Of a DNA stretch of 64,000 bases, positions 35,238-55,518 are shown one piece after another. The stretch is from assembly GCA_028554795.2 (NCBI GenBank), contig CM068827.1, positions 77,373,677 through 77,437,676 on the forward strand, given 5' to 3'. A program made the translations under genes and the position numbers. Numbering within the stretch: position 1 is the first letter of the stretch; every line of letters starts with the position of its first letter. The notes below the pieces were generated by a model. The model saw only the letters and a list, made by a program, of their open reading frames with translations, made no database searches and was not told the DNA's origin. This stretch comes from Sinohyriopsis cumingii (lineage: Eukaryota > Mollusca > Bivalvia > Unionida > Unionidae).

Positions 35238-35619
35238 AGTAGTGAATGGGGATACCCTAGCGACAATGGGAATTAGCATTACAGACCCCCCCGGGACAAT
35301 CTGGCGACAATGGAAAATTAACATGGAGAAAAATCGTGGGACAATCTGGCGACAAGGGAAATTAACATGGAGAAAAATCGTGGGATAATCTGGCTACAAG
35401 GGAAATTAACATGGAGAAAAATCGTGGGACTGTTGAGCGACAAGGGAAATTAACATGGAGAAAAAATCGTGGGACTGTTGAGCGACAAGGGAAATTGAAC
35501 ATGGGATTTTTTTTTTTTAAAAAAAATTATAAAAAATAAAAAAATTAAAAAGGGTAGGCAATCGAAAGTCATTCTCTTTTCGAGAAATGTGGGTGGCCCT
35601 GAAAAGGGCCTTTGGGTTT
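35238..35619 (+). repeat. Polinton left terminal inverted repeat (382 bp)
   Basis: Inverted match to 55199-55518. The outer 54 bp are followed by about five tandem units of about 44 bp (each GGGACAATCTGGCGACAAGG or GGGACTGTTGAGCGACAAGG, then AAATTAACATGGAGAAAAAT), an A/T tract and a stem-loop/purine module (35570-35619). Longer than the right copy because it holds more tandem units. Confidence 0.95.
35595..35610 (-). terminator. Histone-type 3' stem-loop inside left TIR
   Basis: On the minus strand GGCCCT-TTTC-AGGGCC, preceded by CCCAAA and followed by ACCCACA, then CTCGAAAAGAGAAT. This matches the replication-dependent histone mRNA stem-loop and a downstream purine-rich element. It lies 24 nt past the stop of the leftward gene at 35635-35862. 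Confidence 0.8.
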
Positions 35620-35642
35620 ATGTTAATATTAATATTAACATA
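35619..35642. repeat. Perfect 24-bp AT-rich palindrome
   Basis: Perfect inverted repeat centred on 35630/35631 (arm TATGTTAATATT), at the inner edge of the left TIR, overlapping the stop codon of the leftward gene. Not present next to the right TIR. Function unknown. Confidence 0.9.
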
Positions 35643-35862
35643 GATGGCATCTGTCACATCTTCTTCTTAAACTCCTTCTAACTGCAGGTCCATACACAAG
35701 TACCCTCTTGAAACATCCTTGTCTTTCTATGTAAACTCTTCTCATCCATAGACTAGTATCTGTCCTATCAACAACAGTCCACTTGGACCGGACATACATG
35801 AGCATGTCCGTCCTAAACATCATTGAAGACACAAGGCTGGATGATTCAACTGTGGTCCACAT
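35635..35862 (-). CDS. Left-end accessory protein, 75 aa, unknown
   Basis: Outermost left gene, read outward into the left terminal inverted repeat. I do not recognise a family. The protein is Arg-rich, especially residues 42-75, and ends with a Cys/His-like CDRCHLC. Support for a real gene comes from a TATA box (TATAAATA, minus strand 35907-35914) 45 nt before the ATG, and a histone-type stem-loop 24 nt after the stop, the same layout as the right-end genes. It shares a 219-bp divergent promoter with the gene at 36082. Confidence 0.6.
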   Translation of the reverse strand: MWTTVESSSLVSSMMFRTDMLMYVRSKWTVVDRTDTSLWMRRVYIERQGCFKRVLVYGPAVRRSLRRRCDRCHLC

Positions 35863-36081
35863 CTTGAAGCGACGAGAACAGGTGAATCAATGCAGTGAAC
35901 TGCGCTTATTTATAGGTAGAGGAAGGATTGAAACGGATTGAGTTCATTCACCAATCCTAACACGCGTTACAAAATTCAGTCAGCCCTCATCCAATCCGAA
36001 GAGAGCAGTCTGTGACGTCACGTGGTCTATATAGATTCGCTAGCGCCTGTGTGCAGTCAATCTATGCGACAGTGATTCAAC
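35863..36081. promoter_or_regulatory. Divergent promoter of the left-end genes
   Basis: Leftward TATA at 35907-35914 and rightward TATATA at 36028-36033. Between them are two CCAAT boxes (35951-35955 and 35991-35995), a consensus CRE palindrome TGACGTCA (36013-36020) and an overlapping E-box CACGTG (36019-36024). These are host RNA polymerase II motifs; binding is inferred. Confidence 0.65.
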
Positions 36082-36654
36082 ATGACGGAAACTCAGAAAA
36101 CGATCCATTGGGGTGCACCAGCAGTGGAGACCGCCCAAGGGAACTCGGACTTACTTTTAGAAGAGGTAAATTGGGATTTTGTGGATTTTCTTACCTCGCA
36201 AGATTTTGTTCCGGAACCTTCGTCACCTTCTTCATTACCGCAAGTGGAGAATTTTAGACAGAGACAGAAAGAAGAATTGGAGAAATTTATACAACGACAA
36301 AAGGAAGCGGAACAAGCTTTTCTCCTACAGCAACAGCAGCAAGAAGAAGAGGTAAGAAAAAAACAACAGCAAGAAGAAGTAGCAGCAAAGAAACAAGAGG
36401 GTGAAAATCAAACGGTCACGATACTGTTAGATATTTTAGCGGAGTTAAGAAGTCTGAAACAAATGTATTAGACTTCTTTATCACGACCGAAGAGAATACG
36501 ACCTTCCCCAGCTAAACACGTCAACCCTGTGACTAAGCCTACCGTACCACCCTTAGTGATTTCAACCAAATCATCATCATCATCAACATTACGCAGTCCA
36601 GAAGTAGGCCTTGGCCGTGGCAAAGGCTTAAGGCAGTTAAAGTTGATTGCTTAA
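36082..36654 (+). pseudogene. Left-end accessory coiled-coil protein with in-frame stop
   Basis: From the ATG at 36082 the frame encodes an acidic N-terminus, then a Gln/Glu/Lys-rich coiled coil (about residues 55-110) and a leucine-rich helix (LLDILAELRSLKQMY). It meets TAG at 36469-36471, so 129 aa are made as it stands. The same frame then stays open for 60 codons to 36654, with basic Pro/Ser-rich composition and a GRGKG motif near the end. The histone-type stem-loop sits 28 nt after that second stop, which suggests the downstream part was once coding. TATA 49 nt before the ATG. No family recognised. Confidence 0.6.
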
Positions 36655-36681
36655 ACTCACCCTTACACCAAAAAAACCAAA

Positions 36682-36697
36682 GGCCCTTTTCAGGGCC
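36682..36697 (+). terminator. Histone-type 3' stem-loop
   Basis: GGCCCT-TTTC-AGGGCC with AACCAAA before and GCCCA after, then CTCTCGAAAAGAAAT. Follows the coiled-coil gene at 36082-36654. Confidence 0.82.
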
Positions 36698-36932
36698 GCC
36701 CACGTCTCTCGAAAAGAAATACAATTTCAGTTGCCAATAACTCAAAAAAAACCCATTTTACCCCTATAGTACGTTTATATGAGTGAGTGAGTGTAGCTTC
36801 TTATTTTAAAATCAAAACTCAAAGACACTTACCTTATATAATTAATGTATTCTTTTCTCAGTAGTTACAATACAATTCACAATTCACAACAGAACACTTT
36901 AAAAAGTTCATAGACTTCTTCTGTCTCCTTGT
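36698..36932. other. Short intergenic region between convergent genes
   Basis: AT-rich, contains GAGTGAGTGAGTG runs also seen near 53648. No gene. Confidence 0.5.
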
Positions 36933-37373
36933 TTAGTCTCTCTGTGTTTTCAATTTCTTCACCGTCACAGTCTTTTCCTCCTCTTCCTCCTCACTTTCTT
37001 CCCTTCTTCTTTTCTTCTCCTGTCTCTTTCCCTGGCTGCTTTCTTCCTCTGAAAAATCCCTCTCTTCTTCTGAAGAATCCCTCTTTTCTTCTGACTCCTC
37101 TTGTTTCTTTTTTGGGCAATCTGGAGACCAATGTCCTTTTTCTTGACAATAATAACAGGTATCTTGACTTTTGTCTTTTCTAGCCCCTGTTTTTCTTTTT
37201 TGACGGTCTGCACACTCTGAAGACCAATGCCGTTTCTTCTGACAGATATAGCAAGTATCTTGACTTTTATCTCGAAAGGAAGGAGAGTAGTCCGTCGACT
37301 GGTCTGAAGAGAATTTTCTAATGACCCCTCGCAAAGCTCTGATGAAACGTTCGATTTGGCTAGTCTCTTCCAT
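36933..37373 (-). CDS. Two-zinc-knuckle (CCHC) protein, 146 aa
   Basis: Contains two CX2CX4HX4C zinc knuckles: residues C41/C44/H49/C54 (CYICQKKRHWSSEC) and C73/C76/H81/C86 (CYYCQEKGHWSPDC), inside a 32-residue tandem repeat (KSQDTCY.CQ...HWS..C). Such knuckles bind single-stranded nucleic acid in retroviral nucleocapsids and cellular RNA-binding proteins. The tail is a long Glu/Ser/Lys/Arg-rich charged region with basic stretches (KKRRR, KKLK) that could act as nuclear signals. A minus-strand TATATAAAAG at 37427-37436 lies 54 nt before the ATG, and the gene is divergent from the polymerase. Complete and open. Role unknown; replication or genome binding is a guess. Confidence 0.8.
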   Translation of the reverse strand: MEETSQIERFIRALRGVIRKFSSDQSTDYSPSFRDKSQDTCYICQKKRHWSSECADRQKRKTGARKDKSQDTCYYCQEKGHWSPDCPKKKQEESEEKRDSSEEERDFSEEESSQGKRQEKKRRREESEEEEEEKTVTVKKLKTQRD

Positions 37374-37507
37374 CGTTGTGCTCGGTTAGAGAGTGAAATG
37401 AATAGTGAAAGGACAAGACACACACCCTTTTATATACGCTGGTCTGCCATGACTATAAATTAGTCCATGGTGTTTAAACTTGAGTCATTTGACGTTTTTT
37501 ACTCAAG
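37374..37507. promoter_or_regulatory. Divergent promoter, zinc-knuckle gene and polymerase
   Basis: Only 134 bp. Leftward TATATAAAAG (37427-37436, minus) and rightward TATAAAT (37454-37460) are back to back, each about 48-54 nt from its ATG. Confidence 0.7.
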
Positions 37508-40500
37508 ATGAAACGATCCTATTCATTCGAGAAGAAAGAAGAAGAAAAAAGTAAGAGGCAGAAACGTGATCTATCGCCTCGTACCAGGGCTGAAGTCTTG
37601 GCACAAATTCATGCCAGTGATTTTGAAGAGGACATGAGTGAACCAGAATCCGAACACTCTAAACCAAGTTCACCACCCTTAGTCAACCCTGAAAAGTACT
37701 ATTCCATTCGAGAGACGGAAAAGCGCTCCTCTAGAAAATTTAGAACCACGGCTTACAAATACACGGTGAAGTTTAAAGATTTCAAGGCTGAAGTACCGTT
37801 AGAGAAAGCAGAAGGGTTCATCACTGGGGTGTGGGATTCTTTGCTCACTGCACTCAAGCGACAATGTCAACCCAAAGAAGACGATCGCTTGAGACTTTCC
37901 ATACAACACGACCGTTTGAAATCCCCTGTTTGGATCGAGTTTAGCACCCCTGCAGAATTGACCGCTTCCAAAGTCATGGACAAGATTCAACACGTGCAAC
38001 AATCTAATGACCAGTTTGACATCACCGATGGAAAAGCCACACTGGACATGACCATCGTCTCTCCTCCTCAAGGGACTGGACGCAAAAAGATGTTATTGGT
38101 GGACGACCTTCGCAACACCAAAACAAGTCTCGTCCGAATTAACAACCCTGACGACCACATGTGTTTAGCCAGGGCCATCGTGGTGGGACGAACCTATGCC
38201 AACAAGAACGACACGGTAGAATGGAAAAGAACCTGGAAAACTATTCAACGATCCGACCGAGCCAAACAACGAAATGAAGCAGAACTCCTGTTACAACAAG
38301 CCGGACTGTCCAAAGACACACCCTGTGGCATTCCTGAGATGCAAAAATTGCAAGATGCCCTAGCTCCACGATACACATTGAAAGTGTACCCTCAAGAAGT
38401 GCGCGGGCCTCTGTTGTTTCGAGGGAAAGACTTTAAGGACGGAAAATACATTCATGTCTATTATACGATGATCATTTCGATACCATTACCAGTATCACTG
38501 CATTCCTGGGATACGGTTATTACTGTGAGAAATGTGACCATGGTTATAATAATCGACAGCAACACACGCATTGTGTATTGAAATGCTCAGGATGTTTGGC
38601 CTCTCCACCCTGTCTGAGCGAAGGACCAGTGCCTTGTTCAACTTGTCTGCGCACGTTTGTCAGCCCTACCTGTTACCAACAACATCTGAAGACGCAAGGT
38701 TCACAGCAGAAATGTGCTTGTCAACTCCTGAGATTGTGCCCTACGTGTGGACAAGGCATACGTACCAATACTGCCAAGGCACACGTATGTCGAGGAAAGA
38801 AAAAATGTCACATTTGTCACCACATCGTGGACTTGGAACGCCAATGCTACGTGCAAAAATACCAACCTCCACCAGAGAAAGAGGACGGTCACAAGAAGAA
38901 AGGCAATTTCATCTTTTTTGATTTCGAACGCATGCAAGAGACCGGTATTCACATTCTTAATTTCTGCGTGGCTCATCGAGCGTGCGAGAAGTGCATTCAG
39001 GAACCTATCTTCAGTCATTGCCCTCACTGTAGCAAGATTCCCGGAGGGCGTGAAAAAATCTTTCGAGGACCGAACACGTTAGCCGATTTTGCCCAATGGG
39101 TTTTAGACCCCATCGACAAGACGTGGAGCCAAGATGACATCGAACGTTACGGAGATTGTCATCGTCATGCCACAGTGATGGCTCACAATTTCTCCGGATA
39201 CGATGGACAGTTTCTTTTGAGATACTATACGGAACAAGGCACCGAGCGTCCTAAAGTGACTTTGAACGGAGCCAAAATCATTTTCATGCAAGTGGGACAA
39301 GTACAGTTTAAAGATTCGATGAGCTATTTGGCCATGCCTTTGAGTCGAATGCCTAAAACGTTTGGAATGACAGAAATGGCTAAAGGGTACTTTCCACACT
39401 TTTTCAATACGGAAGCCAATTAACACGCCGTTCTACCCCATTTACCTGAGGCTCACTATTACGACCCCGACAACATGCGTACCGAACAACGAGAAGCTTT
39501 CTACGCTTGGTACCAGGCTCACGCCTCGGACCCTTTCGACTTTCAGGAAGAAATGTTAAAGTATTGTCGTTCCGACGTGGACATTTTACGGCGTTGCTGT
39601 GGAAAATTTCGAGAACTGTTCATGGAACACGGAGGGGTCGATCCTTTGAAAGAAGCTTGCACCATTGCCAAAAGCGTGTTCCTTAGTGTATCGACAACGA
39701 TTCATGCCTGAAAACACCGTGGCTGTCATCAGTCCTCAAACGACCCACTATGTCAGACGTCAATACTCGGTCAAAGCCCTACGTTGGTTACATTACTTGT
39801 GCGACAAGGAAGACAAGTGGATTCAGCATGCTCGCAACGGAGGGGGCGAAAAGACCATCGGAACGCATTCGGTCGATGGCTGGGACTTAGAAAACCCCAA
39901 GATCGTGTACGAGTTTAACGGTTTCTTATTTCACGGATGTCCCGTCTGTTACCCTGACCGTGGCACTAAAAATCAGTTTTTACAACGAACCATGGAAGAC
40001 TTGTACCAGGACACTTGTCAGCGACGCCTAAAGTTTAAACAGGAAGGATACCAAGTGGTGGAAATGTGGGAACACAAGTACGATCACCGTATAAAAACCG
40101 ATCCCGAGTTTAAACGCCTCGTGGAAAGTTACCAGTTCATGGACCCGCTGAACCCGAGGGATAGTTTGTACGGAGGAAGGACCAATGCCACCTGTTTGCT
40201 GTACCAAGCCGACGAAGAGAAAGGAGAAGAAATCAAATACTTGGACGTGTGTTCGCTGTATCCCTACGTGTGCAAATATTGTCGCTTTCCTGCAGGGCAC
40301 CCACAATTGTTCACGGAACACATCGACCTGATAAACATTCGACAATACGAAGGTCTGATCAAGTGTAAAATTTTGCCTCCCACGAACCTATACCATCCCG
40401 TGTTACCTCACCATTGTCAAGGCAAACTGATGTTTCCCTTGTGCAGTACTTGTGCCGAAACGTGCAACCAAGACCATCCTTGTCAGCACACCCAGGAAGA

Positions 40501-41548
40501 ACGGGCTTTGACGGGAACCTGGGTCAGCGAAGAATTGTTCAAAACTCTGGACATGGGATACCAACTGTTAGAAGTGTACGAAATTTGCCACTTTCCCAAG
40601 ACACAACAATGCCACAAGGGTGACCCCACGCAAAAAGGCATTTTCGCCGACTACGTGGATGCCTTTTTGAAACTGAAGCAAGAAGCCAGCGGCTATCCTT
40701 TCTGGTGTCACACTCCCGAAGACCAAATAAAATTCAAAGAGAAATACAATGAACAAGAAGGCATCACTTTAGATCACATCGAGAAAAACGAAGGCAGGCG
40801 ATCGTTTGCCAAAGTGATGTTAAATTGCTTGTGGGGTAAAATGGCACAACGCCCGTGTTTACCCAAGACGGAATATTTGACAGAACCTTCCCGCTACTTC
40901 CAGATGATTCACGACAAAACCAAATACATGAAACACGTGGACGTCGTTCGAGAGGATTTGATCTTGGTCAATTACGAAGAAGATCTGGACTTTGTACAAG
41001 ACGACCCTTTTGGAAATGTCATCATTGCGGCTTACGTGACAGCCCATGCTCGTTTAAAATTGTACGAAGCTTTAGAACTGTTAGGGGAACGCGTCCTGTA
41101 CTTTGACACGGACAGTTGCATCTACATTCATCACCCGAGTCAACAGCACCCTGACATCGAAGGAGACCGTTTAGGAGCCTGGACAGACGAGCATCCCGAC
41201 GACAAGATTCTAAGTTTCGTCAGTGGCGGTCCCAAAAATTACGGCTACGAATACCGGGACAAACAAGGTGAAGTGCACACGACGTGAAGAGTGAAAGGAC
41301 TGACTCTGAATTATCGTACCAGTCGAGTGGTCAACTTTGGGGTACTGAAAGAAGCCTTGCAATCCGGAGAGGATGAACATTTTAAAGTGACCACCTATCA
41401 ACCGAACAAGATTGTACGTTTACCCACTCACCACATCGTCAGTCGACCCTTGGAAAAAGTCTATCAAATCGTGTACCAGAAGCGAGTGCGACTACCCAAC
41501 CACTTTACTTTGCCGTATGGACACGTTGGTATAAAACATTGGTTGTAA
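37508..41548 (+). pseudogene. Protein-primed DNA polymerase B (pPolB), broken
   Basis: Replicates the element's linear DNA by protein priming. The N-terminal part is basic/acidic with nuclear-type signals, followed by a Cys-rich zinc-binding region (about 38540-38850). The exonuclease motifs are present: Exo I FFDFE (nt 38920), Exo II NFSGYD (39199), Exo III YCRSDVD (39574). Polymerase motifs follow: A YLDVCSLYP (40244), B KVMLNCLWG (40811), C YFDTDS (41105) and KxY GPKNYGY (41234). All key residues are kept. Breaks: frame change near 38460-38467, in-frame TAA at 39421-39423, frame change near 39669-39672, in-frame TGA at 41285-41287. It therefore cannot be read through. Length of about 1,340 codons fits Polinton polymerases. 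TATA 48 nt before the ATG. Confidence 0.95.
41530..41536 (+). promoter_or_regulatory. TATA box for first BIR gene
   Basis: TATAAAA inside the last codons of the polymerase gene, about 36 nt before the ATG at 41572. Confidence 0.6.
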
Positions 41549-41571
41549 GTGGATAGTCACCCACCAGAAGG

Positions 41572-41976
41572 ATGACTTCGCCACAGCAAAAATCGAGTGA
41601 GAAACCCGATGAGAACTCCAAGTTCAAATCCTACCATTTTCCAGTCTTCTTACCTGACTATTGTGATTGTGCCCGTCGATTGGACACGTTTCAGAAATGG
41701 CCTACGGATAGGGAAGGATTACCTTCTTCGCATGTTTTAGCTATAACAGGATTTGTCTACTTGGGACCTGAGTCAGGATTGGGATATGAAGTACAGTGTT
41801 TCGCTTGCGGACTGAAGTTACGAATGGATCTATGTATCTATAAAGATTCAGCTATTTTGGAACATACTCGATGGTCTCCGCACTGCCCTTACCTTTCTAT
41901 GGCCTTTCCACCCATGACATTACGGTACAATGATGACGGTACCTTAGAGACGGTACCTTCCAAAACAAGACATTAA
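41572..41976 (+). CDS. BIR-domain (IAP-like) protein 1, 134 aa
   Basis: A single BIR domain spans about residues 20-110: RRLDTFQKWP, then an AITGFVYLG core and zinc ligands C76, C79, H98 and C105 (VQCFACG ... LEHTRWSPHCPYL). BIR proteins bind caspases or other apoptosis and immune regulators in host cells and insect and mollusc viruses. The spacing between the second Cys and His is 18 residues rather than the usual 16, and the usual Trp in that loop is absent, so peptide binding may differ. There is no RING domain. It lies directly behind the polymerase and 112 bp before a second BIR gene. Open and complete. Family is clear; an anti-apoptotic role is inference. Confidence 0.88.
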   Translation: MTSPQQKSSEKPDENSKFKSYHFPVFLPDYCDCARRLDTFQKWPTDREGLPSSHVLAITGFVYLGPESGLGYEVQCFACGLKLRMDLCIYKDSAILEHTRWSPHCPYLSMAFPPMTLRYNDDGTLETVPSKTRH

Positions 41977-42025
41977 AAACATAAAAAAGGAAAGATGTAC
42001 AAGCTGGAGACTGCATTGCGACTAG

Positions 42026-42034
42026 TATAAAAAG
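42026..42034 (+). promoter_or_regulatory. TATA box for second BIR gene
   Basis: TATAAAAAG 55-63 nt before the ATG at 42089. Confidence 0.65.
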
Positions 42035-42088
42035 GGGCTATGGTTAAGATCGATAGTTCATTGGGACTACCAAGACCGAGCGAACAAG

Positions 42089-42724
42089 ATGAATACTTTC
42101 AGAGAAATACAAAACAAGTTTAGAAAGGCACAATTCAAGTGTGGGGCTTCTGAAGTGGAATGCGATTGTGAGCCTTGCGATGGGTACGATGCTGTACGTT
42201 GTGACCTTAGCGATGCCGTAAAGCATCATGGGAACATTGTTCTCACTACCCCTATCATGGAAAGTGATGTTGTGCGTGTCAAACCTGAGGGATGCGAAAG
42301 CGATGCCACTCGTCCTCTTGGACATTTTACTGGGTTTCGTTTTAAAGGAGGATGTTCACCTTCACGTCTACCCCCCTACGGATGTCATCCAGCCCTGAGC
42401 AAACTCCTACCCATGTCACTCAACCCTCATCGAAACGAACCTGTGAAAGACGAATATTCGTTCCCTGTGCGTTTGTCGGAATACTGCGACTTTGGAAATC
42501 GTCTTCAATCGTTCAAAGGAAAATGGCCTAAGTATCTGGGAGGACCGACCCCCGAAGAATTAGCCAGAGCCGGATTTTTCTACTTGGGCGAAGGAGATAA
42601 AGTCAAGTGCTTCAGTTGCGGTGTGTCACTTCACCACTGGGAACCGCAAGATTCGGCCTACGTAGAACATGCTCGATGGTCACCGAATTGTCATTACTTA
42701 CCCTTAGTGGGACCGAGACACTGA
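42089..42724 (+). CDS. BIR-domain (IAP-like) protein 2, 211 aa
   Basis: The C-terminal BIR domain at about residues 123-205 is canonical: NRLQSFKGKWP, LARAGFFYLGEGDKVKCFSC, then HHWEPQDS and VEHARWSPNCHYL. Zinc ligands are C174, C177, H194 and C201 in the CX2CX16HX6C spacing. The N-terminal 120 residues are Cys-rich with no recognised fold (Cys at 18, 25, 27, 30, 38, 69, 89 and 99). There is no RING or second BIR. It pairs with the shorter BIR gene upstream and probably arose by duplication followed by divergence, or by two captures. Open and complete. Likely acts on host cell-death or innate signalling; that role is inferred from the family. Confidence 0.92.
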   Translation: MNTFREIQNKFRKAQFKCGASEVECDCEPCDGYDAVRCDLSDAVKHHGNIVLTTPIMESDVVRVKPEGCESDATRPLGHFTGFRFKGGCSPSRLPPYGCHPALSKLLPMSLNPHRNEPVKDEYSFPVRLSEYCDFGNRLQSFKGKWPKYLGGPTPEELARAGFFYLGEGDKVKCFSCGVSLHHWEPQDSAYVEHARWSPNCHYLPLVGPRH

Positions 42725-42746
42725 AGTAACTTACCATAATCTGTTC

Positions 42747-43181
42747 ATGGATACTTTACACGAGAACATTCGTGCTTTGCCTGTGGAGTTGAGAGAACTC
42801 ATTTACCGAGAGCTGGTCAAAATACAAGTCAAACGTAAAGAACAATTGCATCCGTTACGTCACCGGTGTTTGAACCACTGGTACCTGAATGCTATAAAAG
42901 GACTGATTCAGTTGAAAGTGTTCCATTGGACAGACATTGATCAACAACCCCCTGGTTTTAAAAAGGATTGGTTTGCTATTGATGATTCTATCTTCTACAA
43001 TGTAAACGTACTGCATCGAATTCCAGAGGAAGAGTTAACGAATTACCGACATCTTTTACACAATGTCAACTTAGTGAAAGAGGAAACTTCTGAACGAATT
43101 GTAATGTGTAAATTAGTGACTAAACGATTTCGATTCGACAATGAATTAAAACTATGTCTGTGCAAACAGTACATTTCTTGA
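42747..43181 (+). CDS. F-box-like accessory protein, tandem copy 1, 144 aa
   Basis: Starts MDTLHENIRALPVELRELIY. The LPxELRExIYxEL stretch at residues 11-23 resembles the start of an F-box (SKP1-binding) helix pair; the rest is not recognised. The first 45 or so codons are almost identical to the next gene, after which the two proteins differ strongly. No clear TATA of its own; the ATG lies 23 nt after the BIR2 stop. Open and complete. If it is a true F-box protein it could recruit a host ubiquitin ligase, but this rests on a short motif only. Confidence 0.65.
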   Translation: MDTLHENIRALPVELRELIYRELVKIQVKRKEQLHPLRHRCLNHWYLNAIKGLIQLKVFHWTDIDQQPPGFKKDWFAIDDSIFYNVNVLHRIPEEELTNYRHLLHNVNLVKEETSERIVMCKLVTKRFRFDNELKLCLCKQYIS

Positions 43182-43214
43182 GTCAGACAAAAGAGGATTT
43201 AGTATGACCTATTC

Positions 43215-43733
43215 ATGGATACTTTGCTAGAGAACATTCGTGCTTTACCTGTGGAATTGAGAGAACGCATTTACCGAGAGCTGGTCAAAATACAAGTCAA
43301 ACGTAAAGAACAGTTGCATCCGTTACGTCACCAGATCTTTAACCACTGGTACCTGAATGGTATAAGAGAACTGATTCGTCAGAAATTGTTTCAGTGGTCA
43401 GACCTTGTTCAATACTTCCATGACCCCGATGATCCACGTGTTGATTATTTTGGTTACTTCGAGATTCACCTACAGCAATACATTGAGGAAGACAAGGTAA
43501 AGGATTACCGACATATTTTACGTGGAATCTACTTAGTGGAAGAGGAAACTTCTAAACGATCTCTGACGTTTCGGTTACAGTATGCAACATTTAAATTCCC
43601 CACTGGAAAACGAAGATCTCTGGCTAGAAAGTACGTGTATTCTTTTCGAAACAAAGAGACTATAAAAACAGGCTGCCATGCCACGACTTTAATCACATGT
43701 AATCCAACAGATTCCGTGGAAGGAACTCAATGA
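43215..43733 (+). CDS. F-box-like accessory protein, tandem copy 2, up to 172 aa
   Basis: Paralogue of the previous gene: the same N-terminus (NIRALPVELRERIYRELVKI), HPLRHQ..NHWYLN, and the later KDYRHIL...LVEEETSKR. The last 25 or so residues (after KETIKTG) overlap another reading frame and may be spurious. No other domain is recognised. The upstream 30 bp resemble those before copy 1 (ACCTATTCATGG against TCTGTTCATGG). Confidence 0.62.
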   Translation: MDTLLENIRALPVELRERIYRELVKIQVKRKEQLHPLRHQIFNHWYLNGIRELIRQKLFQWSDLVQYFHDPDDPRVDYFGYFEIHLQQYIEEDKVKDYRHILRGIYLVEEETSKRSLTFRLQYATFKFPTGKRRSLARKYVYSFRNKETIKTGCHATTLITCNPTDSVEGTQ

Positions 43734-44479: not shown

Positions 44480-45208
44480 ATGGCTACCTCTGCTGTCTCT
44501 GCTCCCTCTTCCTCTACTGTCAAAGTCATCGACGAACACTTAGATCGTGCCAGTTGGGAGGCTTTGTATCTTCGCCATCCCTTTAACATGCTCATTGCTG
44601 GACCTAGCGGTTCAGGCAAAACCGAATTCGTCAAACGTTTGATCGAACATAAACATCATCTGATCGATCGACCACCTCAACGGATCGTGTGGTGTTACAA
44701 AGAGTGGCAATCGGCGTACAGCCTCTTGCGAGAAAGTCAAGGCGATTCCATCGTGTTTGTGGAAGGCATTCCTAAAGAAGACGACGGCATCGTCTCTGAC
44801 TCCCGTCAAACCCATTTGGTCATTTTTGACGACATGTTAGGAGAAGACGAAGAAGAAATTAAACTGTGGTTCACGCGCAAAGGGCATCACCGTAATGCCA
44901 GTGTCGTTTACATCACCCAAAATTTGTTTCAACAAAGTAAAGCCCATCGCACCATCAGTCTCAATGCGCATTACGTGGTCTTGTTTAAAAGCCCTCGAGA
45001 TAAAACGCAAGTGCAAGTCTTAGCCAAACAGTTAGGAACGCCTTGGCTGACTCAGGCGTACGACGATGCCACTCAAACTCCACACTCCTATTTACTCGTC
45101 GATTTGAAACCTACGACCCCCGATGATTTGCGATTTCGTACCCACTTGTTTCACCACTGGTGCCAAGACGGAGGACCTGTCCTGTACACGTCTCCGTCCT
45201 CGACTTAA
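44480..45208 (+). CDS. Genome-packaging ATPase (FtsK/HerA, A32-like), 242 aa
   Basis: P-loop ATPase expected to pump viral DNA into capsids. Walker A is GPSGSGKT (residues 41-48), Walker B HLVIFDDML (112-120), with a sensor-like ITQN motif at about 152 and an arginine-bearing FKSPRDK at about 172. Length fits Polinton ATPases. Full open frame with its own TATA box, so unlike polymerase and capsid genes it shows no break. Function assigned by family. Confidence 0.93.
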   Translation: MATSAVSAPSSSTVKVIDEHLDRASWEALYLRHPFNMLIAGPSGSGKTEFVKRLIEHKHHLIDRPPQRIVWCYKEWQSAYSLLRESQGDSIVFVEGIPKEDDGIVSDSRQTHLVIFDDMLGEDEEEIKLWFTRKGHHRNASVVYITQNLFQQSKAHRTISLNAHYVVLFKSPRDKTQVQVLAKQLGTPWLTQAYDDATQTPHSYLLVDLKPTTPDDLRFRTHLFHHWCQDGGPVLYTSPSST

Positions 45209-47371: not shown

Positions 47372-48480
47372 AATGGAAAGGTCTTAGCCAGCATTTACTA
47401 CGATCCCTCCCATCCTGCAGGTTACGCAGGAGTTCAAAAATTGTATCGTGCTGCCAAAACTCGACTGAAAAGTCTCCGTTTACCTCAAGTGCAACGATGG
47501 TTACAAGAACAAGCTACCTACACTTTACACAAACCCATTCGACGCAAGTTTGCCAGAAGTCGCACCCGAGTGGAAGGCATCGACCATCAATGGCAAGCCG
47601 ATTTAGCCGATGTCTCTCATTTGGCCAGCTACAATCGTGGCTAAAAATATTTGTTTTGTGTCATCGACGTCTTTTCCAAATTTGCCTGGGTCGTACCCTT
47701 GACTTCCAAATTCAGCAGCGAGTTAGTGCGAGCCTGCAACGAGTGTTGAAAGAAAGCGGTCGTCACCCTCTTCGATGGCAAACGGACAAAGGCACCGAAT
47801 TTCTGAACCAAGCTTTCCAAAAAGAATTAAAGAAACGTGACATTCATTTTTTTACCACCGAGAATCCAGAAACCAAAGCCAGCATCGTGGAACGTTTTCA
47901 ACGCACTTTGAAAGAACACATATGGAAATATTTTACGCATCACCACACTCTGAAGTACATCGACATCTTACCGCACCTGGTGCAAGCGTACAACCAATCT
48001 TACCATCGAAGCATCGGACGTGCCCCGGAAGAAGTGACTCCCGAGAACGAAGTGTTGGTGTTTGAGCGCCTGTTTGGTACGTCCCCGACGAGGGCTGTCC
48101 CCAAGAAAAGTGGAGAGTTGACCGTAGGAGATTGGGTGCGCATTGGCAAAACCAAACGCACTTTCGACAAAGGTTACTTACCTAACTGGACGACCGAATT
48201 GTTTCGTGTCACTGGACGAGTGCATGGCTGTCATCCTACCGTCTATAAATTGGAAGACATGAACGGAGAAGTGCTCAAAGGAATGTTTTATTTGCCCGAG
48301 GTACAACGTGTCACCAAAAAAGAAGACGACGTGTACGACATCGAAAGCATTCTCGAACGCAGAACCCGTAAAGTGGGCAAACGACGTGTCAAAGAAGTGA
48401 AAGTACGTTGGAAAGGATATCCACCCAGTTTTGATTCTTGGATCGACGCTTCGCAAGTCATCGACTATAAAAAGAAGTGA
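47372..48480 (+). pseudogene. Retroviral-type integrase with chromodomain, broken
   Basis: Inserts the element into host DNA. An N-terminal region (SIYYDPSHPAGYAGVQKLYR, WLQEQATYTLHKP) leads to the rve core with its acidic triad: D in DHQWQADLADV (about 47605), D in RWQTDKGTEF (about 47790) and E in KASIVERFQRTLK (about 47890), the last two 35 residues apart. A C-terminal chromodomain (DVYDIESILERR, KVRWKGYPPSFDSWID) probably targets chromatin. Breaks: no in-frame ATG at the start, in-frame TAA at 47642-47644, and a frame change near 47735. Not functional as it stands. Confidence 0.92.
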
Positions 48481-49824: not shown

Positions 49825-49827
49825 GTC

Positions 49828-50253
49828 ATGTATCCAGTGTACCGAGGGGTTGCTCGACAGCGAGGACACGGTTTAGGAGATACGTTAAAATCGGCCTTTC
49901 GTTCGGTGGCCCCGGTGTTGAAACCGATGGTGACACCCGGATTGCACGCCTTGAAAGATGCGGCACTGACGCAAGGCAAAGAATTTCTCCAAAATGTCAT
50001 CATCGACAAACGAAACCCTAAAGAAGCCTTCATGAGGGCTGGCAAAAATGTATTGCTGCAAACGGGCAAAGACATTTTAGGCCGACGAGACACACCTATA
50101 AATGCCCTTCACGCTACCGAGTCAGGCATTCAGCAAGGACAAGGCAGAAAGAGACGACGAAGAAAACACACTTTCACCAGACTTCACACGTCTAAAGCGA
50201 GAAAGGCCAAGAAAAATAGAACCGTCCGAGACTTAGACGTTTTCGATTATTGA
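49828..50253 (+). CDS. Basic virion protein (adenovirus pVI/pX-like), 141 aa
   Basis: Starts MYPVYRGVARQRGHGLGD followed by an amphipathic segment TLKSAFRSVAPVLKP, a pattern shared with small virion proteins encoded between minor and major capsid genes in Polintons and adintoviruses, and reminiscent of the membrane-active helix of adenovirus pVI. The C-terminal third is strongly basic (RKRRRRKH, SKARKAKKNR). Begins 3 nt after the minor capsid stop. Open. The function by analogy is uncertain. Confidence 0.65.
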   Translation: MYPVYRGVARQRGHGLGDTLKSAFRSVAPVLKPMVTPGLHALKDAALTQGKEFLQNVIIDKRNPKEAFMRAGKNVLLQTGKDILGRRDTPINALHATESGIQQGQGRKRRRRKHTFTRLHTSKARKAKKNRTVRDLDVFDY

Positions 50254-50288
50254 GACACAGAGAAAAATGATGCACCGACCTGTTTGCC

Positions 50289-51536
50289 ATGCCCCCTACG
50301 ATGATGACGATGCAAGAATCCCAGTGGGTGGAATTTCACCCCGTCTCCTCATTGACAGATTCCGCTCCCATCGAGTTTGAAATCAAAGGACAGCCCGAAG
50401 ATTACATCGATCTGAATAGCAGTTACTTGTACTTGAAAGTCAAAGTTCTAGATAAGGATAATGGTGGAGTAGAAGACACTGAGAATATAGCTCCCGTTAA
50501 CAATTTCATGCATTCCTTGTTCAGCTCAGTGGACTTGTACTTGAATAACAAACTGGTCAGCAGCAGCATGGATACTTACCCTTACCGTGCCTAGCTGGAA
50601 AATCTCTTGACGTACGGAATAGATGCCAAGAATACTCATCTCAATGCTTGTGTGCTATGGGAACCTGACGAAGCGAGCAAGTTTGACATAATAGATAAAG
50701 ACATTGACGGCTTTGAGGAAAGACGAAACAAAATCACAGATGGAAAGAGTTTAGAACTGATGGATCGTTTGCATTTGGACATGTGGTTGCAAGAGAAATA
50801 TTTGCTAAACGGGGTAAATGTCCGCTTGAGACTGAATCGCAGCAGTGCCGCTTTCCATTTGTTGGCTGATACTACTTCTGGCACTCCTAAAAGCAATATC
50901 GAGGAGGCCAAACTCTACGTACGACGCGTGGAAGTGTTACCCAAAGTGGGAAACGACATCAGTCAGACGTTGAGCAGAACGACCGCCAAGTATCCGATAC
51001 GTCGCGTGGAAGTGAAAACCTTCACCATTCCCAAGGGACAGCGATCCATGATCGAAGATCATTTGTTTCAAGGACAGTTACCCAAACGTTTAATCCTTGG
51101 TATGGTCGAGAATTCAGCCTTCAACGGAACCTTCGCTGAAAATCCTTTCCACTTTCGACACTTTGGCGTGTCCAAGATCGAAGTCAGTCACGATGGCAAG
51201 ACCTTGTGTACCCGACCTTTCGAACCTGACTTTGAGAAGAAGAATTACTTGAGATCGTACTTGTCCCTGTACGAAGCCACTGGACAGTTAGGGACCAACA
51301 CCAGTCACGGCATTACGTACGAGGATTATGCAGGAGGCTATGCTTTGTGGGCTTTTGATTTCACTCCAGACCAAGGCAGCGACGAGGGACATTTCCACCC
51401 TATAAAATCCGGCCAGATTCGTGTGGAACTTCAGTTTGCTAATGCTCTACCAGACACGGTGAACGTCATCCTGTATGCCGAATTTGATAATACGATAGAA
51501 ATCAACAGTTTGAGAGAAGTCATTCTAGATTATTAG
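50289..51536 (+). pseudogene. Major capsid protein (double jelly roll), one in-frame stop
   Basis: Hexon-like capsid protein. Landmarks: WVEFHPVSSLTDSAPIEFEI, YIDLNSSYLYLKVKV, FMHSLFSSVDLYLN, then LDMWLQEKYLLNGVNVRLRL, KGQRSMIEDHLFQGQLPKR and a C-terminal IRVELQFANALPDTVNVILY with EINSLREVILDY. One in-frame TAG at 50592-50594, after about 101 codons, breaks an otherwise continuous frame of about 415 codons. Length and order fit Polintons. Confidence 0.93.
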
Positions 51537-51541
51537 AAGCC

Positions 51542-52021
51542 ATGGAAGACTGTTATCCCTCTTTACCTAGTGGAGATACTTTGGACATGGAACGTGAGGA
51601 GACTGTGGAAGAAGTGATCATGATGAAGTCCCAATGGCCAGAACAAGAAGCCCATTTAGTCTCCTGTTTTGCCAAGCACTTGGTCGAAAAAATGACGGAA
51701 TTGATCAAGAAAGATTGCTATGGATGTCAAAACGATCATCCCAGTCAAATTCAACACGATAAATGCCTGATGCTGAGTCAAGAAGAAAAATATTATGAGT
51801 ATCTGGACGAGGCTTGGAGTCTCATCTCGGACGAAGACGTGTTGCACCAGTGGTATAAAGACTTGCGTGAACATTCTTGTCCACCATTAACCACTCAAGA
51901 GATCGATCGTATCGAAGCTCTCCTGAATCAGAGTGAGGAGACGAAACGAAGAAACGGTTATTTGTCAGACATTTTCAAGAAAAAAGTCAGGATCGAATTG
52001 ATGACTTATTATTACCTGTGA
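51542..52021 (+). CDS. Polinton accessory protein with Cys/His motif, 159 aa
   Basis: ATG 6 nt after the capsid stop. Contains KDCYGCQNDHPSQIQHDKC at about residues 55-73, a likely zinc site (Cys, Cys, His, His, Cys), between acidic helical regions. I recall similar CYGC...QH motifs in Polinton-associated proteins of aquatic animals. Lies between major capsid and protease. Open. Role unknown. Confidence 0.65.
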   Translation: MEDCYPSLPSGDTLDMEREETVEEVIMMKSQWPEQEAHLVSCFAKHLVEKMTELIKKDCYGCQNDHPSQIQHDKCLMLSQEEKYYEYLDEAWSLISDEDVLHQWYKDLREHSCPPLTTQEIDRIEALLNQSEETKRRNGYLSDIFKKKVRIELMTYYYL

Positions 52022-52048
52022 AGAAGAAAAAAAAAAAACACACAAAAA

Positions 52049-52609
52049 ATGGATACCTGGGAACTTTATTACCTTTTGAACCACAGTTCGTATATGGCTT
52101 CTTGGAATCCTGTCGTCTGTGCTAAAGATGAACTCTCTCATCGCAAACCTCAAGACCATCAAGCTTATGTCATCAACATGGACGACAGTCATCTCCCAGG
52201 AACCCACTGGGTAGCCGTTTACTTTCCTCAAGAAAGATGTGTGGAATATTTCGATTCGTATGGATTGCCCCCTTTGGAAGACGATATCATTGACTTTATG
52301 AGAAGAAATGCTCAGACTACCCGATTCAATAATGTGAAATTACAAGGCACAGATTCTTTGGTGTGTGGACAGTACTGTGTGTATTTTCTGCATCATCGCA
52401 GCCTGGGCTATTCCTTAGAACATTTAGTGACTCATTTTGATCCTCGTTCTTCTTCTAGAAATGATGTGAAAGTAGATCGATGGTTTTGTGACCATTATGC
52501 TTATCTTTTGTCTCAAGCTAGGAAACGTAGTGTCAATCAATGGCCTAATGACTTCCAACAGTGGAAATCACAATTTCATTCACAACGTTGTCAGCCCTGT
52601 TTAAAGTAG
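52049..52609 (+). CDS. Adenain-like cysteine protease, 186 aa
   Basis: Virion maturation protease of the adenovirus/Ulp1 (C5/C48) fold. Catalytic residues fit: His53 in GTHWVAVYF, Asp69 in CVEYFDSYGLPP, Gln99 in KLQGTDS and Cys106 in LVCGQYCVYFL, with the Gln-Cys spacing of seven as in adenovirus. Length is close to adenain (about 200 aa). Complete and open, with an A-rich leader before the ATG. Expected to cleave capsid and core precursors. Confidence 0.92.
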   Translation: MDTWELYYLLNHSSYMASWNPVVCAKDELSHRKPQDHQAYVINMDDSHLPGTHWVAVYFPQERCVEYFDSYGLPPLEDDIIDFMRRNAQTTRFNNVKLQGTDSLVCGQYCVYFLHHRSLGYSLEHLVTHFDPRSSSRNDVKVDRWFCDHYAYLLSQARKRSVNQWPNDFQQWKSQFHSQRCQPCLK

Positions 52610-52720
52610 ACTGTAAATTGAAAAAAAATGTCTGTCATTTGAAAAAAATGTTTGATGTTATAATGTTGGATTATTGTTAAAATTGTTAGAGTTGTTGTTG
52701 GTTAGGGTTAAGTGATTTTG

Positions 52721-52726
52721 AATAAA
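52721..52726 (+). terminator. Candidate polyadenylation signal after protease
   Basis: AATAAA 112 nt after the protease stop, unlike the stem-loops that follow the terminal genes. Confidence 0.45.
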
Positions 52727-52854
52727 AAAATGTTGTATTTTGAAAAAAATGCCTTTGTCGTTTGTTTGGCTTTAAAAATGTTGATTCATGCTCTTTGACT
52801 TCTCTCTATCTCTCTCATGTCACTCATTGAATGTTCCGGCTCGAAAACCGTGGA

Positions 52855-52882
52855 GGGATGTTTTCCTTCACGTCCGCGCTTT
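52855..52882 (+). promoter_or_regulatory. Right-end promoter motif, copy 1
   Basis: GGGATG then TTTTCCTTCACGTCCGCG and CTTT, followed by a weak TATA-like CTTTAAGAA. Same module at 53721, 54431 and 54498. Confidence 0.75.
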
Positions 52883-52946
52883 GACTTTAAGAACCGGGGC
52901 AATTTTCCAGTCTAACGATCCATTGTCGACTCATCCTCCTACGAAG

Positions 52947-53309
52947 ATGTGCTCCAAATTAGCTAAGCTAAACGAAGCCTACGTGAATTTGCATAGGGTC
53001 AGACACAGTTTGATACCGAAAGCTGAAGAGATAGAGAATGTGAGAATGCTAAAAGTCACTGAAGACCTGATAGAAGAGCTCTTCAGAGAAGAAGTGAACA
53101 GGGAGAAAGAAGAATGGACAGAGAAGTACAGACTTCTGAATCAGCAGCAACAGCAACAACAACAACAGCAGCAGCAGCAGGAACCTGAACCTGACAGAGG
53201 CTTTGTCGATTGTCGTATCGACACCAAAGAGTTCTTCTTCTCTTTCCGAAGAAGCAGACCTATCGTCAGAAAGTCTATCCTCAGAGGACGACGCATTCTT
53301 AGAAACTAA
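52947..53309 (+). CDS. Right-end accessory coiled-coil protein 1, 120 aa
   Basis: Helical LAKLNEAYVNLHRVRHSLI and IEELFREEVNREKEEW, then a Gln run made of CAG/CAA codons, and a basic C-terminus (FRRSRPIVRKSILRGRR). It aligns loosely with the two following genes (helix and EEV....E.W pattern), so the three form a family. An upstream in-frame ATG at 52788 would run through the promoter motif and is less likely. Stem-loop 29 nt after the stop. No known family. Confidence 0.65.
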   Translation: MCSKLAKLNEAYVNLHRVRHSLIPKAEEIENVRMLKVTEDLIEELFREEVNREKEEWTEKYRLLNQQQQQQQQQQQQQEPEPDRGFVDCRIDTKEFFFSFRRSRPIVRKSILRGRRILRN

Positions 53310-53338
53310 AAGATTGCCATAGCAAACAAAAAAAACCC

Positions 53339-53354
53339 AGCCCTTTTCAGGGCT
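53339..53354 (+). terminator. Histone-type 3' stem-loop, A-T base pair variant
   Basis: AGCCCT-TTTC-AGGGCT: the same structure as the GGCCCT/AGGGCC copies with the outer pair changed on both sides. Followed by ACCCAA and CTAGAAAAGAAAT. Confidence 0.78.
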
Positions 53355-53666
53355 ACCCAATACTCTAGAAAAGAAATAACAATCAATTTGCCAATGTGTG
53401 TAGGTAGAGTAGTGTGAATATAAACACTAACTCTTTTTTATAGTGTGAGTGTATGTGTTTGTGTATAAGATTGTGTGTTTGTAAGTGCTCACGTACGTTG
53501 GTGTGGATAATAGATTAAAATCATGTCTTTTTTGCTGTTAGAGGTGTGGGAAGAGTAGATTTGGGGTTTGTTTCCTTTTGTATGTGGATAGTATATTGAA
53601 GTGATTAATGAAAATTTTTTAGAACAGTAATGGGCAGTATAAAAAAGTGAGTGAGTGTTTCTTTTA
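53355..53666 (+). other. Post-terminator spacer, duplicated
   Basis: AT-rich spacer rich in GTGTGTTTGTG; nearly identical in its first 115 bp to 54191-54310. No gene. Confidence 0.6.
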
Positions 53667-53758
53667 GGTCCGCGCGTTGTGTTGGTCATGATCTAGGTAA
53701 GATCAATTTTATGCTTTAGGGGGATGTTTTCCTTCACGTCCGCGCTTTTAGTATAAAT
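53667..53758 (+). promoter_or_regulatory. Right-end promoter module, copy 2
   Basis: A partial motif (GGTCCGCGCGTTG), then GGTCATGATCTAGGTAAG, ATCAATTTTATG, a full motif TTTTCCTTCACGTCCGCG at 53727-53744 and TATAAAT at 53752. The same arrangement occurs at 54431-54536. Confidence 0.75.
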
Positions 53759-53793
53759 TAAAAGTCACTCGTCAGTCCAGCTACCCTTGTTGA

Positions 53794-54144
53794 TTGATCA
53801 ACACCAGAGTGAACACCAGACTAGCGAAACTGTTGGAACTTCATGTGCATCTGGAATATGCCAGGCGCCTGTTGAACGAAGCCATTGTGGAAGAGGGAAG
53901 GATGAGAGAGGGGGAGGAGAGAAGAAACAAAGAAGAGGAGGAGAGAAGATACAAAGAAGAGGAAGAGGAGAGAAGAAACAAAGAAGAGGAGGAAAAGGAG
54001 AGAAGAAATTTCAGAATCCCAGAGACAGAAAATTGGGATTCTGAAGCTATTTATCCCGCCTCTGCTCTCTCCCCAAAAAAGGTAAAAAGCAACTGGAGAA
54101 CAAGATGTGTATGTGGCGCCAGGCCTGGAAGGTGCCATCATTAA
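53794..54144 (+). pseudogene. Right-end accessory coiled-coil protein 2, no ATG start
   Basis: The frame reads TRLAKLLELHVHLEYARRLL at the position of the start of gene 1, then a long Glu/Arg/Lys coiled coil built of imperfect repeats (ERRNKEEEE), and NFRIPETENWDSEAIYP. No ATG lies in frame between the TATA-derived start region and codon 36, so the start is lost or non-AUG (TTG 53794, GTG 53809). Stem-loop 31 nt after the stop. Open otherwise. Confidence 0.5.
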
Positions 54145-54174
54145 CCAGGTGTCCATGAAGTTCCAAAAAAAACC

Positions 54175-54190
54175 AGCCCTTTTCAGGGCT
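54175..54190 (+). terminator. Histone-type 3' stem-loop, A-T base pair variant
   Basis: AGCCCT-TTTC-AGGGCT with ACCCAA and CTCGAAAAGAAAT after it; near-identical to 53339-53354 with its surroundings. Confidence 0.78.
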
Positions 54191-54430
54191 ACCCAATACT
54201 CTCGAAAAGAAATAACCATCAATTTGCCAATGTGTGTAGGTAGAGTAGTGTGAATATAAACACTGACTCTTTTTTTCATAGTGTGAGTGTATGTGTTTGT
54301 GTGTTTGTGTTTGTGTTTGTAAAAGCTCACGTAAGTTTGTGTGAATAGTAGATTATGGGTTAGTTTATTGTTTCTTAGCGTATGTGGAGAGTATAGTTTG
54401 GGTTTTATTATATGAAATGAGAAAGTAGGA

Positions 54431-54536
54431 GGGATGTTTTCCTTCACGTCCGCGAGTTGTTTGGTCATGATCTAGGTAATATCAATTTTATGTCTTAGGG
54501 GAATGTTTTCCTTCACGTCCGCGCTTTAACTATAAG
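54431..54536 (+). promoter_or_regulatory. Right-end promoter module, copy 3 (double motif)
   Basis: Two copies of TTTTCCTTCACGTCCGCG (about 54437-54454 and 54506-54523) with GGTCATGATCTAGGTAAT between them, then CTATAAGAA at 54530, 50-57 nt before the ATG at 54587. Confidence 0.78.
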
Positions 54537-54586
54537 AACCTACAAAGTTCGTCGTTCGCACCATTCTACAGAATAATCTAGACAAG

Positions 54587-55183
54587 ATGACTCAAGTGAC
54601 TGATTTATTTAATCAGTTGAGGCATATCTATTTCTGGATGATAGATGCAGAATATGCTATAGAAAGGATACAAAAGGAATGGAAGTATGAAGATAAAGAA
54701 CACTTGGTAACCAGTCAAGTCGAACGTCTAAAGGCCGCCAGACATATAATAGAAGGAATGATAGAAGATGAAGTCAACAAATCAAGAGGATTTATTGACC
54801 CACCTTATGTCAGAGTGGGGAGTTTGAAGGAAGCACTGGATTATGTCATCCAAGTCCGGTGCTTCCTAGAACCTATAGTGTATTGGACGGAGTTGTCATA
54901 TGTGAAGAGGGGGCTGGACAGGTTGAAAAAAGGAGAAGAAATAATGAAACAAGTGATGACTGAAGAGGTGAAAAAGATAAAAGAAAAATGGAGTCAAGAA
55001 AGACAGGATAAGGAAACAATAAAGAAGAAAGAGGCCTTTGACAAAGTCAATCAAAATTGGATCAAGATACAAGAGAAGTTCAGGGCTATGGGTCACCCAG
55101 ACTGGTTACCAGAAAAAGAAAAGAGGAAGAACAAAGGAATTTGGAGAAAGATTAGGGGCTGGATGAGGAAATGGAGGAAATAG
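54587..55183 (+). CDS. Right-end accessory coiled-coil protein 3, 198 aa
   Basis: Outermost right gene, read outward into the right terminal inverted repeat. All-helical, highly charged. Two related halves: residues about 5-60 (LFNQLRHIYFWMIDAEYAIE ... VERLKAARHIIEGMIEDEV) and about 82-128 (LKEALDYVIQVRCFLEPI ... LDRLKKGEEIMKQVMTEEV), suggesting an internal duplication. Short relatives are the two preceding genes. The C-terminus is basic (KEKRKNKGIWRKIRGWMRKW). Stem-loop 24 nt after the stop. Open. No known family. Confidence 0.7.
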   Translation: MTQVTDLFNQLRHIYFWMIDAEYAIERIQKEWKYEDKEHLVTSQVERLKAARHIIEGMIEDEVNKSRGFIDPPYVRVGSLKEALDYVIQVRCFLEPIVYWTELSYVKRGLDRLKKGEEIMKQVMTEEVKKIKEKWSQERQDKETIKKKEAFDKVNQNWIKIQEKFRAMGHPDWLPEKEKRKNKGIWRKIRGWMRKWRK

Positions 55184-55198
55184 AAGAAGAAGCAGAAG

Positions 55199-55518
55199 AA
55201 ACCCAAAGGCCCTTTTCAGGGCCACCCACATTTCTCGAAAAGAGAATGACTTTCGATTGCCTACCCTTTTTTATTTTTTTATTTTTTATTTTTTGAAAAA
55301 AAATAAAAAAATCCCATGTTCAATTTCCCACGATTTTTTCTCCATGTTAATTTCCCTTGTCGCTCAACAGTCCCACGATTTTTCTCCATGTTAATTTCCC
55401 TTGTCGCCAGATTGTCCCACGATTTTTCTCCATGTTAATTTTCCATTGTCGCCAGATTGTCCCAGGGGGGTCTGTAATGCTAATTCCCATTGTCGCTAGG
55501 GTATCCCCATTCACTACT
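55199..55518 (-). repeat. Polinton right terminal inverted repeat (320 bp)
   Basis: Reverse complement of the left repeat with about 3.3 tandem units instead of about 5. The inner edge starts at the AAACCC just before the histone-type stem-loop. Confidence 0.95.
55208..55223 (+). terminator. Histone-type 3' stem-loop inside right TIR
   Basis: GGCCCT-TTTC-AGGGCC preceded by CCCAAA and followed by ACCCACA and CTCGAAAAGAGAAT. Identical to the left-TIR copy because it is part of the inverted repeat. Confidence 0.82.

Follow-up and report, generated by a model that had tools for sequence, protein, structure and literature searches.

Why should genes of a mobile DNA element in a bivalve end in the manner of the host's histone genes? 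The question is raised by a 64-kb stretch of the Sinohyriopsis cumingii genome (the window, taken at its full length), in which positions 35238–55518 hold a Polinton of 20.3 kb. The initial annotation had read five hairpins near the ends of this element as histone-mRNA-type stem-loops that close accessory genes, which we call L1, A, B, C, and D. Two further features emerged from the present analysis, namely, histone promoter boxes upstream of B, C, and D and the presence of the 3' signal tens of thousands of times genome-wide. Taken together, the sequence comparisons make it quite likely that the accessory genes of this Polinton imitate host replication-dependent histone genes and that three of them (B, C, and D) do so at both ends.

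All five hairpins were recovered where they had been annotated, as matches to the GGCCCTTTTCAGGGCC pattern at up to three mismatches; the 64-kb window contains 5 such matches, versus 0.16 expected from 100 shuffles. They are confined to the Polinton, and all five follow an accessory gene in sense orientation, 24 to 30 nucleotides (nt) past the stop codon, in agreement with the distance of about 24 to 31 nt first given. Each consists of a 6-bp stem, GGCCCT/AGGGCC or a compensated form, and a UUUC loop. A purine box, GAAAAG, is present at 5/5 sites as described, but it begins 13 nt past the end of the stem, or 29 nt past its start, somewhat closer than the 15 to 20 nt proposed. Other details likewise stood in part: ACCCA follows the stem at four of the five sites, site A reading GCCCA, and at B and C, the outer pair is A-U and the stem is not directly preceded by AAA. 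Since the L1 and D stem-loops lie inside the terminal inverted repeats and are copies of each other, the five sites amount to four independent ones. The Rfam covariance model RF00032 (Histone3; gathering score, 34 bits), the check suggested by the initial annotation, exceeded this score only at L1 and D (40.8 bits each in the 64 kb scanned), two top scores that represent one sequence because both sites are in the terminal repeats. The three internal sites, A, B, and C, reached 27.1 to 30.2 bits (E values of 4e-5 to 6e-4). A chance origin of the stem-loops was considered and is ruled out by the window shuffles together with a reversed-sequence control that returned 0 matches in the genome.

Host histone genes, set in advance as a test of this identity, provide the yardstick. 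In the assembly searched (2.9 Gb, 1,138 contigs), they form tandem units of ~8.3 kb each, one of which (locus L069, with genes H3, H4, H2B, H2A, and H1) was read. All five genes of this unit end in a stem of the identical type with a UUU-N loop and a purine box at equal spacing, 29 nt from the stem start in H3, H4, and H2B and 30 nt from it in H2A and H1. Their stem-loops (GGCCCTTTTTAGGGCC in H3 and H4, GGCCCTTTTCAGGGCC in H2B, GGCCCTTTTAAGGGCC in H2A, and GGTCCTTTTCAGGACC in H1) lie 27 to 38 nt past the stop and score 35.0 to 39.4 bits with RF00032, so that the terminal-repeat signal of the Polinton outscores all five and the internal Polinton sites score lower. The host stem, GGCCCT..AGGGCC, is lineage specific, with a compensated version at H1; position 4 is C-G in both the Polinton and the L069 unit and U-A in the Rfam consensus. 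Among 30 histone loci fetched, one or more such stem-loops were present in 29, and two in 28. A further common stretch resembling TCAATTTTGCC lies ~15 to 20 nt past the purine box at the Polinton sites and, in a looser form, in H2A, H2B, H4, and H3 of the host.

Because all five genes of the host unit end in a like stem and box, we regard the Polinton stem-loops as histone-type 3' ends. This identity is also supported by silence near the core genes. The initial annotation had placed no hairpin after the capsid or polymerase genes, and no histone-type signal was found by core genes where they were examined (RF00032 and ATPase loci). Around the ATPase, none was present in 30 loci (111,780 bases), which hold 27 hairpins, all of one unrelated antisense kind. 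The generic animal stem GGCTCT/AGAGCC (GGCTCTTTTCAGAGCC) has 192 copies in the genome, and 89 of the 100 places listed fall in tandem arrays on contigs C8, C15, and C61 (G000:C8:71072816-71209371, G000:C15:116515421-116610018, and G000:C61:4114-85086, with periods of ~4.26, 2.4, and 4.26 kb). These arrays may represent a second cluster of histone or sperm-protein genes. The dispersed form seen in Polintons is therefore that of the host's main histone unit.

The resemblance extends to promoters. Repeat D6, which recurs upstream of genes B, C, and D, is also found in the host unit. When the element ends were compared with L069 in pieces by BLAST, boxes of 21 to 27 nt agreed with the host H4, H2B, and H1 promoters at zero to two mismatches (Table 1). 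Three core-gene pieces had no BLAST match to the unit at E 0.005, and a 16-nt match of the integrase end to the H3 gene (E 0.035) was taken as chance. In the host, the boxes sit 60 to 108 nt before the ATG, and an inverted copy upstream of H2A has 3 mismatches in the 18-nt core. The best matches to this core had 1 and 2 mismatches in the real unit and at least 4 in 200 base-shuffled unit strands, and none was found at up to 4 mismatches in the 43.7-kb flank. Genome-wide, there are 25,693 occurrences of the 21-mer box, against 0 for its reversed control. On contig C1 up to 5.57 Mb, an exact stem-loop follows within 1 kb in sense after 54 of 69 boxes and in antisense after 0. The H2B/H1 forms of the box number 6,675 in the genome, and on the same part of C1 a sense stem-loop follows 10 of 16 (antisense, 0). 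Unlike the host histone promoters, genes C and D of the Polinton have at least two boxes per gene and L1 and A have none; the role of the boxes is putative.

The 3' signal itself is abundant. GGCCCTTTTCAGGGCC has 34,230 exact matches (16,943 + 17,287; ~1.4 expected by chance for a 16-mer, as 2 x 2.9e9 / 4^16), and in 32,070 cases (94%; reversed control, 0) GAAAAGA follows 10 to 14 nt later. The related AGCCCTTTTCAGGGCT occurs 21,286 times. Host H2B genes account for part of the 34,230 occurrences; candidates at the first look of the histone family search numbered 662 in all. With each element taken to have three GGCC and two AGCC sites, these counts suggest about ten thousand Polinton copies. 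GGCC sites that lie 900 to 1300 nt apart on C1 are divergent in 27 cases, convergent in 0, and on the same strand in 1 (among 98 of 100 places listed), the divergent arrangement being that of the L1/A pair. The same contig also has seven same-strand stem-loops ~1,851 nt apart (G000:C1:5073417-5084523), absent from the purine-box listing, which seem to be a Polinton end turned tandem array.

Other copies of the element speak to the conservation of the signal. An RF00032 scan of the genome scored 75 of 589,472 candidates, and the 8 loci fetched from these 75 all match the terminal repeat and are Polinton ends. As these loci were chosen by their hairpin, further copies were sampled by ATPase and by protein D. 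In the right-end stretch of 20 ATPase-chosen copies (from 150 matches listed), the terminal stem-loop was retained in 18, the terminal-repeat motif not being found in the stretch of the other two (L082 and L088). A C-type stem-loop was also present in 18 (an exact match in 15 and a single change in 3); gene C was not found in the stretch of L083 and L086. Gene D was recognisable in 7/20, at 44 to 55% identity over the longest stretch. Of 20 copies chosen by protein D (again from 150 matches listed), the 3' flanks of all 20 kept the hairpin position and purine box and 17 the exact 16-mer; two of the remaining three have one broken pair.

The window and 17 copies were then compared block by block (18 sequences, 153 pairs), anchored on the purine box, which sits inside the signal block and favours its identity somewhat. 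In the 77 pairs with an upstream identity of <0.65, the upstream 300 nt averaged 0.57 (0.56 when shuffled), compared with 0.92 for the signal block and 0.70 for the 200-nt stretch beyond it. By this comparison, the 3' signal is maintained where the terminal gene has diverged beyond recognition. For the stem alignment, a loose rule yielded 92 stretches; 11 that had 5 to 6 differences from the stem-loop were dropped, and 49 of the other 81 were aligned, repeat-like ones being omitted by hand. Pairing held in 97.9% of 280 cells, versus 66.1% in the best slid control. Changes on both sides of a pair occurred in 14 cells, as high in 0/500 shuffles, and at two pair positions, as high in 22/500 shuffles, with one of the two positions contributed by host H1 alone; because the copies are related, such a shuffle value is not a probability.

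These results bear on how the signals came to be where they are. Had histone pieces been captured once and then spread by duplication and terminal-repeat copying as functionless passengers, one might expect what is seen in the B and C regions, which are duplicates of each other (90% over 136 nt), in the terminal sites, which are mutual copies, and in the very large number of copies. Such passengers would not readily account for a block 0.92 identical beside a neighbouring gene changed beyond recognition, for the two-sided stem changes, or for the kept order and orientation of box and stem-loop (54/69 in sense versus 0 in antisense), and we consider this origin very improbable. A role of the palindrome at the DNA level (the terminal repeats might, for example, serve in replication or packaging) seems to us more improbable still. 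It would suit the two of five sites that lie within those repeats, but the other three lie outside, all five stand in sense after a gene, conservation extends from the stem to the loop and purine box, and the block is also found at host histone genes.

A more serious alternative accepts the ends as RNA signals and differs over their use. Oocytes and early embryos store histone messages and translate them, and the Polinton ends might be used for poly(A)-independent expression there and not for S-phase coupling, which would aid germ-line spread. The very many integrated copies imply that the element must reach the germ line, and the sequence signal would not be expected to separate the two uses. 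Nothing specific speaks against this alternative, and both uses may coexist; the promoter boxes of B, C, and D, in turn, fit expression alongside histone genes in any dividing cell. On these grounds, we judge oocyte or embryo use in place of S-phase coupling to be unlikely, with a clearly better claim than either of the two preceding explanations.

If the accessory genes do imitate host replication-dependent histone genes, as we favour, the histone-type signals at their ends indicate transcripts that are probably bound by SLBP, not polyadenylated, and linked to S phase. SLBP and the U7 small nuclear ribonucleoprotein (snRNP) act at replication-dependent histone 3' ends. In the Polinton, SLBP would bind the hairpin, a U7-type snRNP would pair with the purine box, and the transcript would be cut a few nucleotides past the stem and lack a poly(A) tail, while transcription of B, C, and D may use the S-phase factors of histone genes. 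Production of the accessory proteins would then coincide with a supply of replication enzymes and nucleotides for the viral polymerase, and the core genes would be served by other signals. A further, tentative proposal, to which we give slightly less than an even chance, is that transcription and processing of the mimics take place together with those of the host histone genes, perhaps in histone locus bodies, and that the lineage forms a possible SLBP/U7 sink to which the host had to adapt. If true, tens of thousands of Polinton histone-type 3' signals would far exceed those of the host histone genes.

Several observations weigh against imitation of histone genes as the explanation. The internal sites A, B, and C score below the Rfam cut-off, and no histone promoter box was found at L1 and A. 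AATAAA lies 94 nt past the start of the right-end stem and ATTAAA 175 nt past that of B, which makes polyadenylation a possible substitute or addition; AATAAA is likewise present at host H4, at 37 and 92. A test of whether the H2B/H1 box form is exclusive to histone genes gave no separation because Polintons carry those forms too. The box is thus common in Polintons, and its restriction to histone genes outside them could not be demonstrated. Finally, searches for the host SLBP domain (PF15247) and U7 small nuclear RNA (RF00066) returned no match, with controls equally silent, which means that absence was not shown.

Table 1. Positions of the Polinton features in the window, with the evidence for each (ORF, open reading frame; aa, amino acids)
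Feature	Position	Strand	Basis and remarks
Left terminal inverted repeat	35238..35619	.	Inverted repeats with 55199-55518 and end-to-end alignment; contains L1 stem-loop
L1 histone-type stem-loop and purine box	35569..35615	-	RF00032, 40.8 bits (35570-35615); stem-loop 35595-35610
Gene L1, 75 aa	35635..35862	-	ORF without Pfam match; stop 24 nt before stem; relatives in L002, L003, L007
Gene A	36082..36654	+	Final stop 27 nt before stem; in-frame stop 36469-36471 in window copy
A histone-type stem-loop and purine box	36677..36723	+	RF00032, 29.0 bits, cut-off 34 not reached; stem-loop 36682-36697
DNA polymerase B, part	39704..41287	+	PF03175, E 9.5e-25; no histone-type signal after it
ATPase, Pox_A32 type	44480..45208	+	PF04665, E 6.9e-8
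Integrase with chromodomain	47497..48480	+	Chromo, E 1e-7; rve, E 0.00023, short of its cut-off
Two ORFs at place expected for Polinton capsid gene	50289..51536	+	ORFs, no Pfam match
Probable adenovirus-type protease	52049..52609	+	Peptidase_C5, E 0.066, short of its cut-off
Histone promoter box upstream of B	52854..52880	+	25/27 to host H1; 23/24 (52857-52880) to host H2B
Gene B, 120 aa	52947..53309	+	ORF; stop 29 nt before stem
B histone-type stem-loop and purine box	53334..53380	+	RF00032, 27.1 bits, cut-off not reached; stem-loop 53339-53354
Box upstream of C, identical to host H4 promoter	53658..53678	+	21/21 to L069 1556-1576
Histone promoter box upstream of C	53721..53746	+	24/26 to host H1; 23/24 (53723-53746) to host H2B
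Gene C, from first in-frame ATG of window copy	53902..54144	+	ORF; stop 30 nt before stem
C histone-type stem-loop and purine box	54170..54216	+	RF00032, 30.2 bits, cut-off not reached; stem-loop 54175-54190
First histone promoter box upstream of D	54430..54454	+	23/25 to host H1; 21/22 (54433-54454) to host H2B
Second histone promoter box upstream of D	54500..54525	+	Repeat D6; 22/23 (54503-54525) to host H2B; adjoins TATA-like sequence
Gene D, 198 aa	54587..55183	+	ORF and predicted structure, all-helical (pLDDT 74); stop 24 nt before stem
Right terminal inverted repeat	55199..55518	.	Inverted repeats with left end and alignment; contains D stem-loop
D histone-type stem-loop and purine box	55203..55249	+	RF00032, 40.8 bits (55203-55248); stem-loop 55208-55223
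TCAATTTTGCC-like stretch regions	55208-55260, 36682-36735, 53339-53392, 54175-54228; L069 histone 3' flanks		Sequence comparison

By its gene content and ends, the element is a Polinton/Maverick, with polymerase B, integrase, ATPase, and inverted terminal repeats all present; protein priming is putative, and the two ORFs between integrase and protease are presumed to be capsid from the gene order of Polintons, a label that no search confirmed. The window copy is damaged, with an in-frame stop in gene A, whose frame is uninterrupted to ~190 aa in L002 and L003, and a polymerase split over several ORFs. It may also have recombined; no matching 6-bp target-site duplication was found at its ends (GACAAC in the left flank, CATGAA in the right flank). 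For gene C, the frame that has relatives extends further upstream than the first ATG of the window copy. No Pfam histone match was obtained for the genes scanned (L1, A, B, and D), and the predicted fold of D had no significant structural match. By these comparisons, the accessory genes are not histone genes and may be expressed in the manner of histone genes. An LxCxE (Rb-binding) motif was considered for the accessory proteins and discarded, as 3 occur in the element and 0 in L1, A, B, C, and D. The divergent promoter region between L1 and A (35863-36081) contains TGACGTCA, CACGTG, CCAAT-type, and TATA-like sequences and no histone box.

Other genes of the element include two with BIR (inhibitor of apoptosis) domains (41572-41976 and 42089-42724; Pfam), a duplicated pair at 42731-43412 (86% identity over 214 nt, the first copy without a Pfam match), and a zinc-knuckle gene near the left end (36933-37373, minus strand; zf-CCHC, E 3.7e-10). 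The closest recognised host exons belong to a lamin gene ~24 kb upstream (7089-7499 and 11446-11643; intermediate filament, E 3.5e-20, with a weak lamin tail domain match). The right flank has a long TA repeat (56283-56435) and a weak reverse-transcriptase fragment (57140-57406; E 0.0063, short of the cut-off). Across the 30 ATPase loci (435 pairs), the mean synonymous difference (pS) was 0.038 and the mean nonsynonymous difference (pN) 0.0015; as the loci had been ranked on protein score, a choice that lowers pN, these values are only a hint that the lineage was recently functional. The P0001-P0005 and P0013 set comprises relatives of protein D (49 to 53%) on short metagenome contigs and an ATPase relative (64%) in a draft genome named Candidatus Thiodiazotropha taylori; the latter may be host sequence within the assembly of a clam symbiont. 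IMG/VR and GTDB contigs yielded no relatives by ATPase, polymerase, or pattern, and the pattern of stem-loop and purine box had 0 matches in viral_contigs and 0 in genome_contigs.

To our knowledge, no virus or transposon closes its own messages with a histone stem-loop, and a literature search for one found none; nor did it find a description of histone-type ends in a Polinton, most subscription papers being outside its reach. Like animal Polintons/Mavericks, the element has polymerase B, an integrase with a chromodomain, an ATPase, a probable protease, and inverted terminal repeats; unlike them, it has histone-type gene ends. Its stem-loops share with the replication-dependent histone 3' end (RF00032) the 6-bp stem, a 4-nt U-rich loop, mostly ACCCA, a purine box at host spacing, and a sense position near the stop, and they differ in belonging to non-histone Polinton genes, in having some A-U outer pairs, and in that their processing is putative. 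In the portion of a vertebrate Maverick study consulted, the words "histone," "stem-loop," and "polyadenylation" occur 0 times (PMC8097293). The part consulted of a report on Lucina pectinata histone genes describes a stem-loop near the stop and purine-rich elements, as here, but in host genes and with no mobile element mentioned (PMC6210712).

If the accessory transcripts are processed as suggested, they would represent a new route by which an integrated virus reaches S phase, through the one message class tied to DNA synthesis, and the borrowing would extend, in three genes, from the 3' end to the promoter. RNA sequencing with poly(A) selection would miss such transcripts. For the host, the finding raises the question of how histone supply is managed with tens of thousands of mobile copies sharing its processing signal, and for Polintons, it offers a direct test of when these elements are active.

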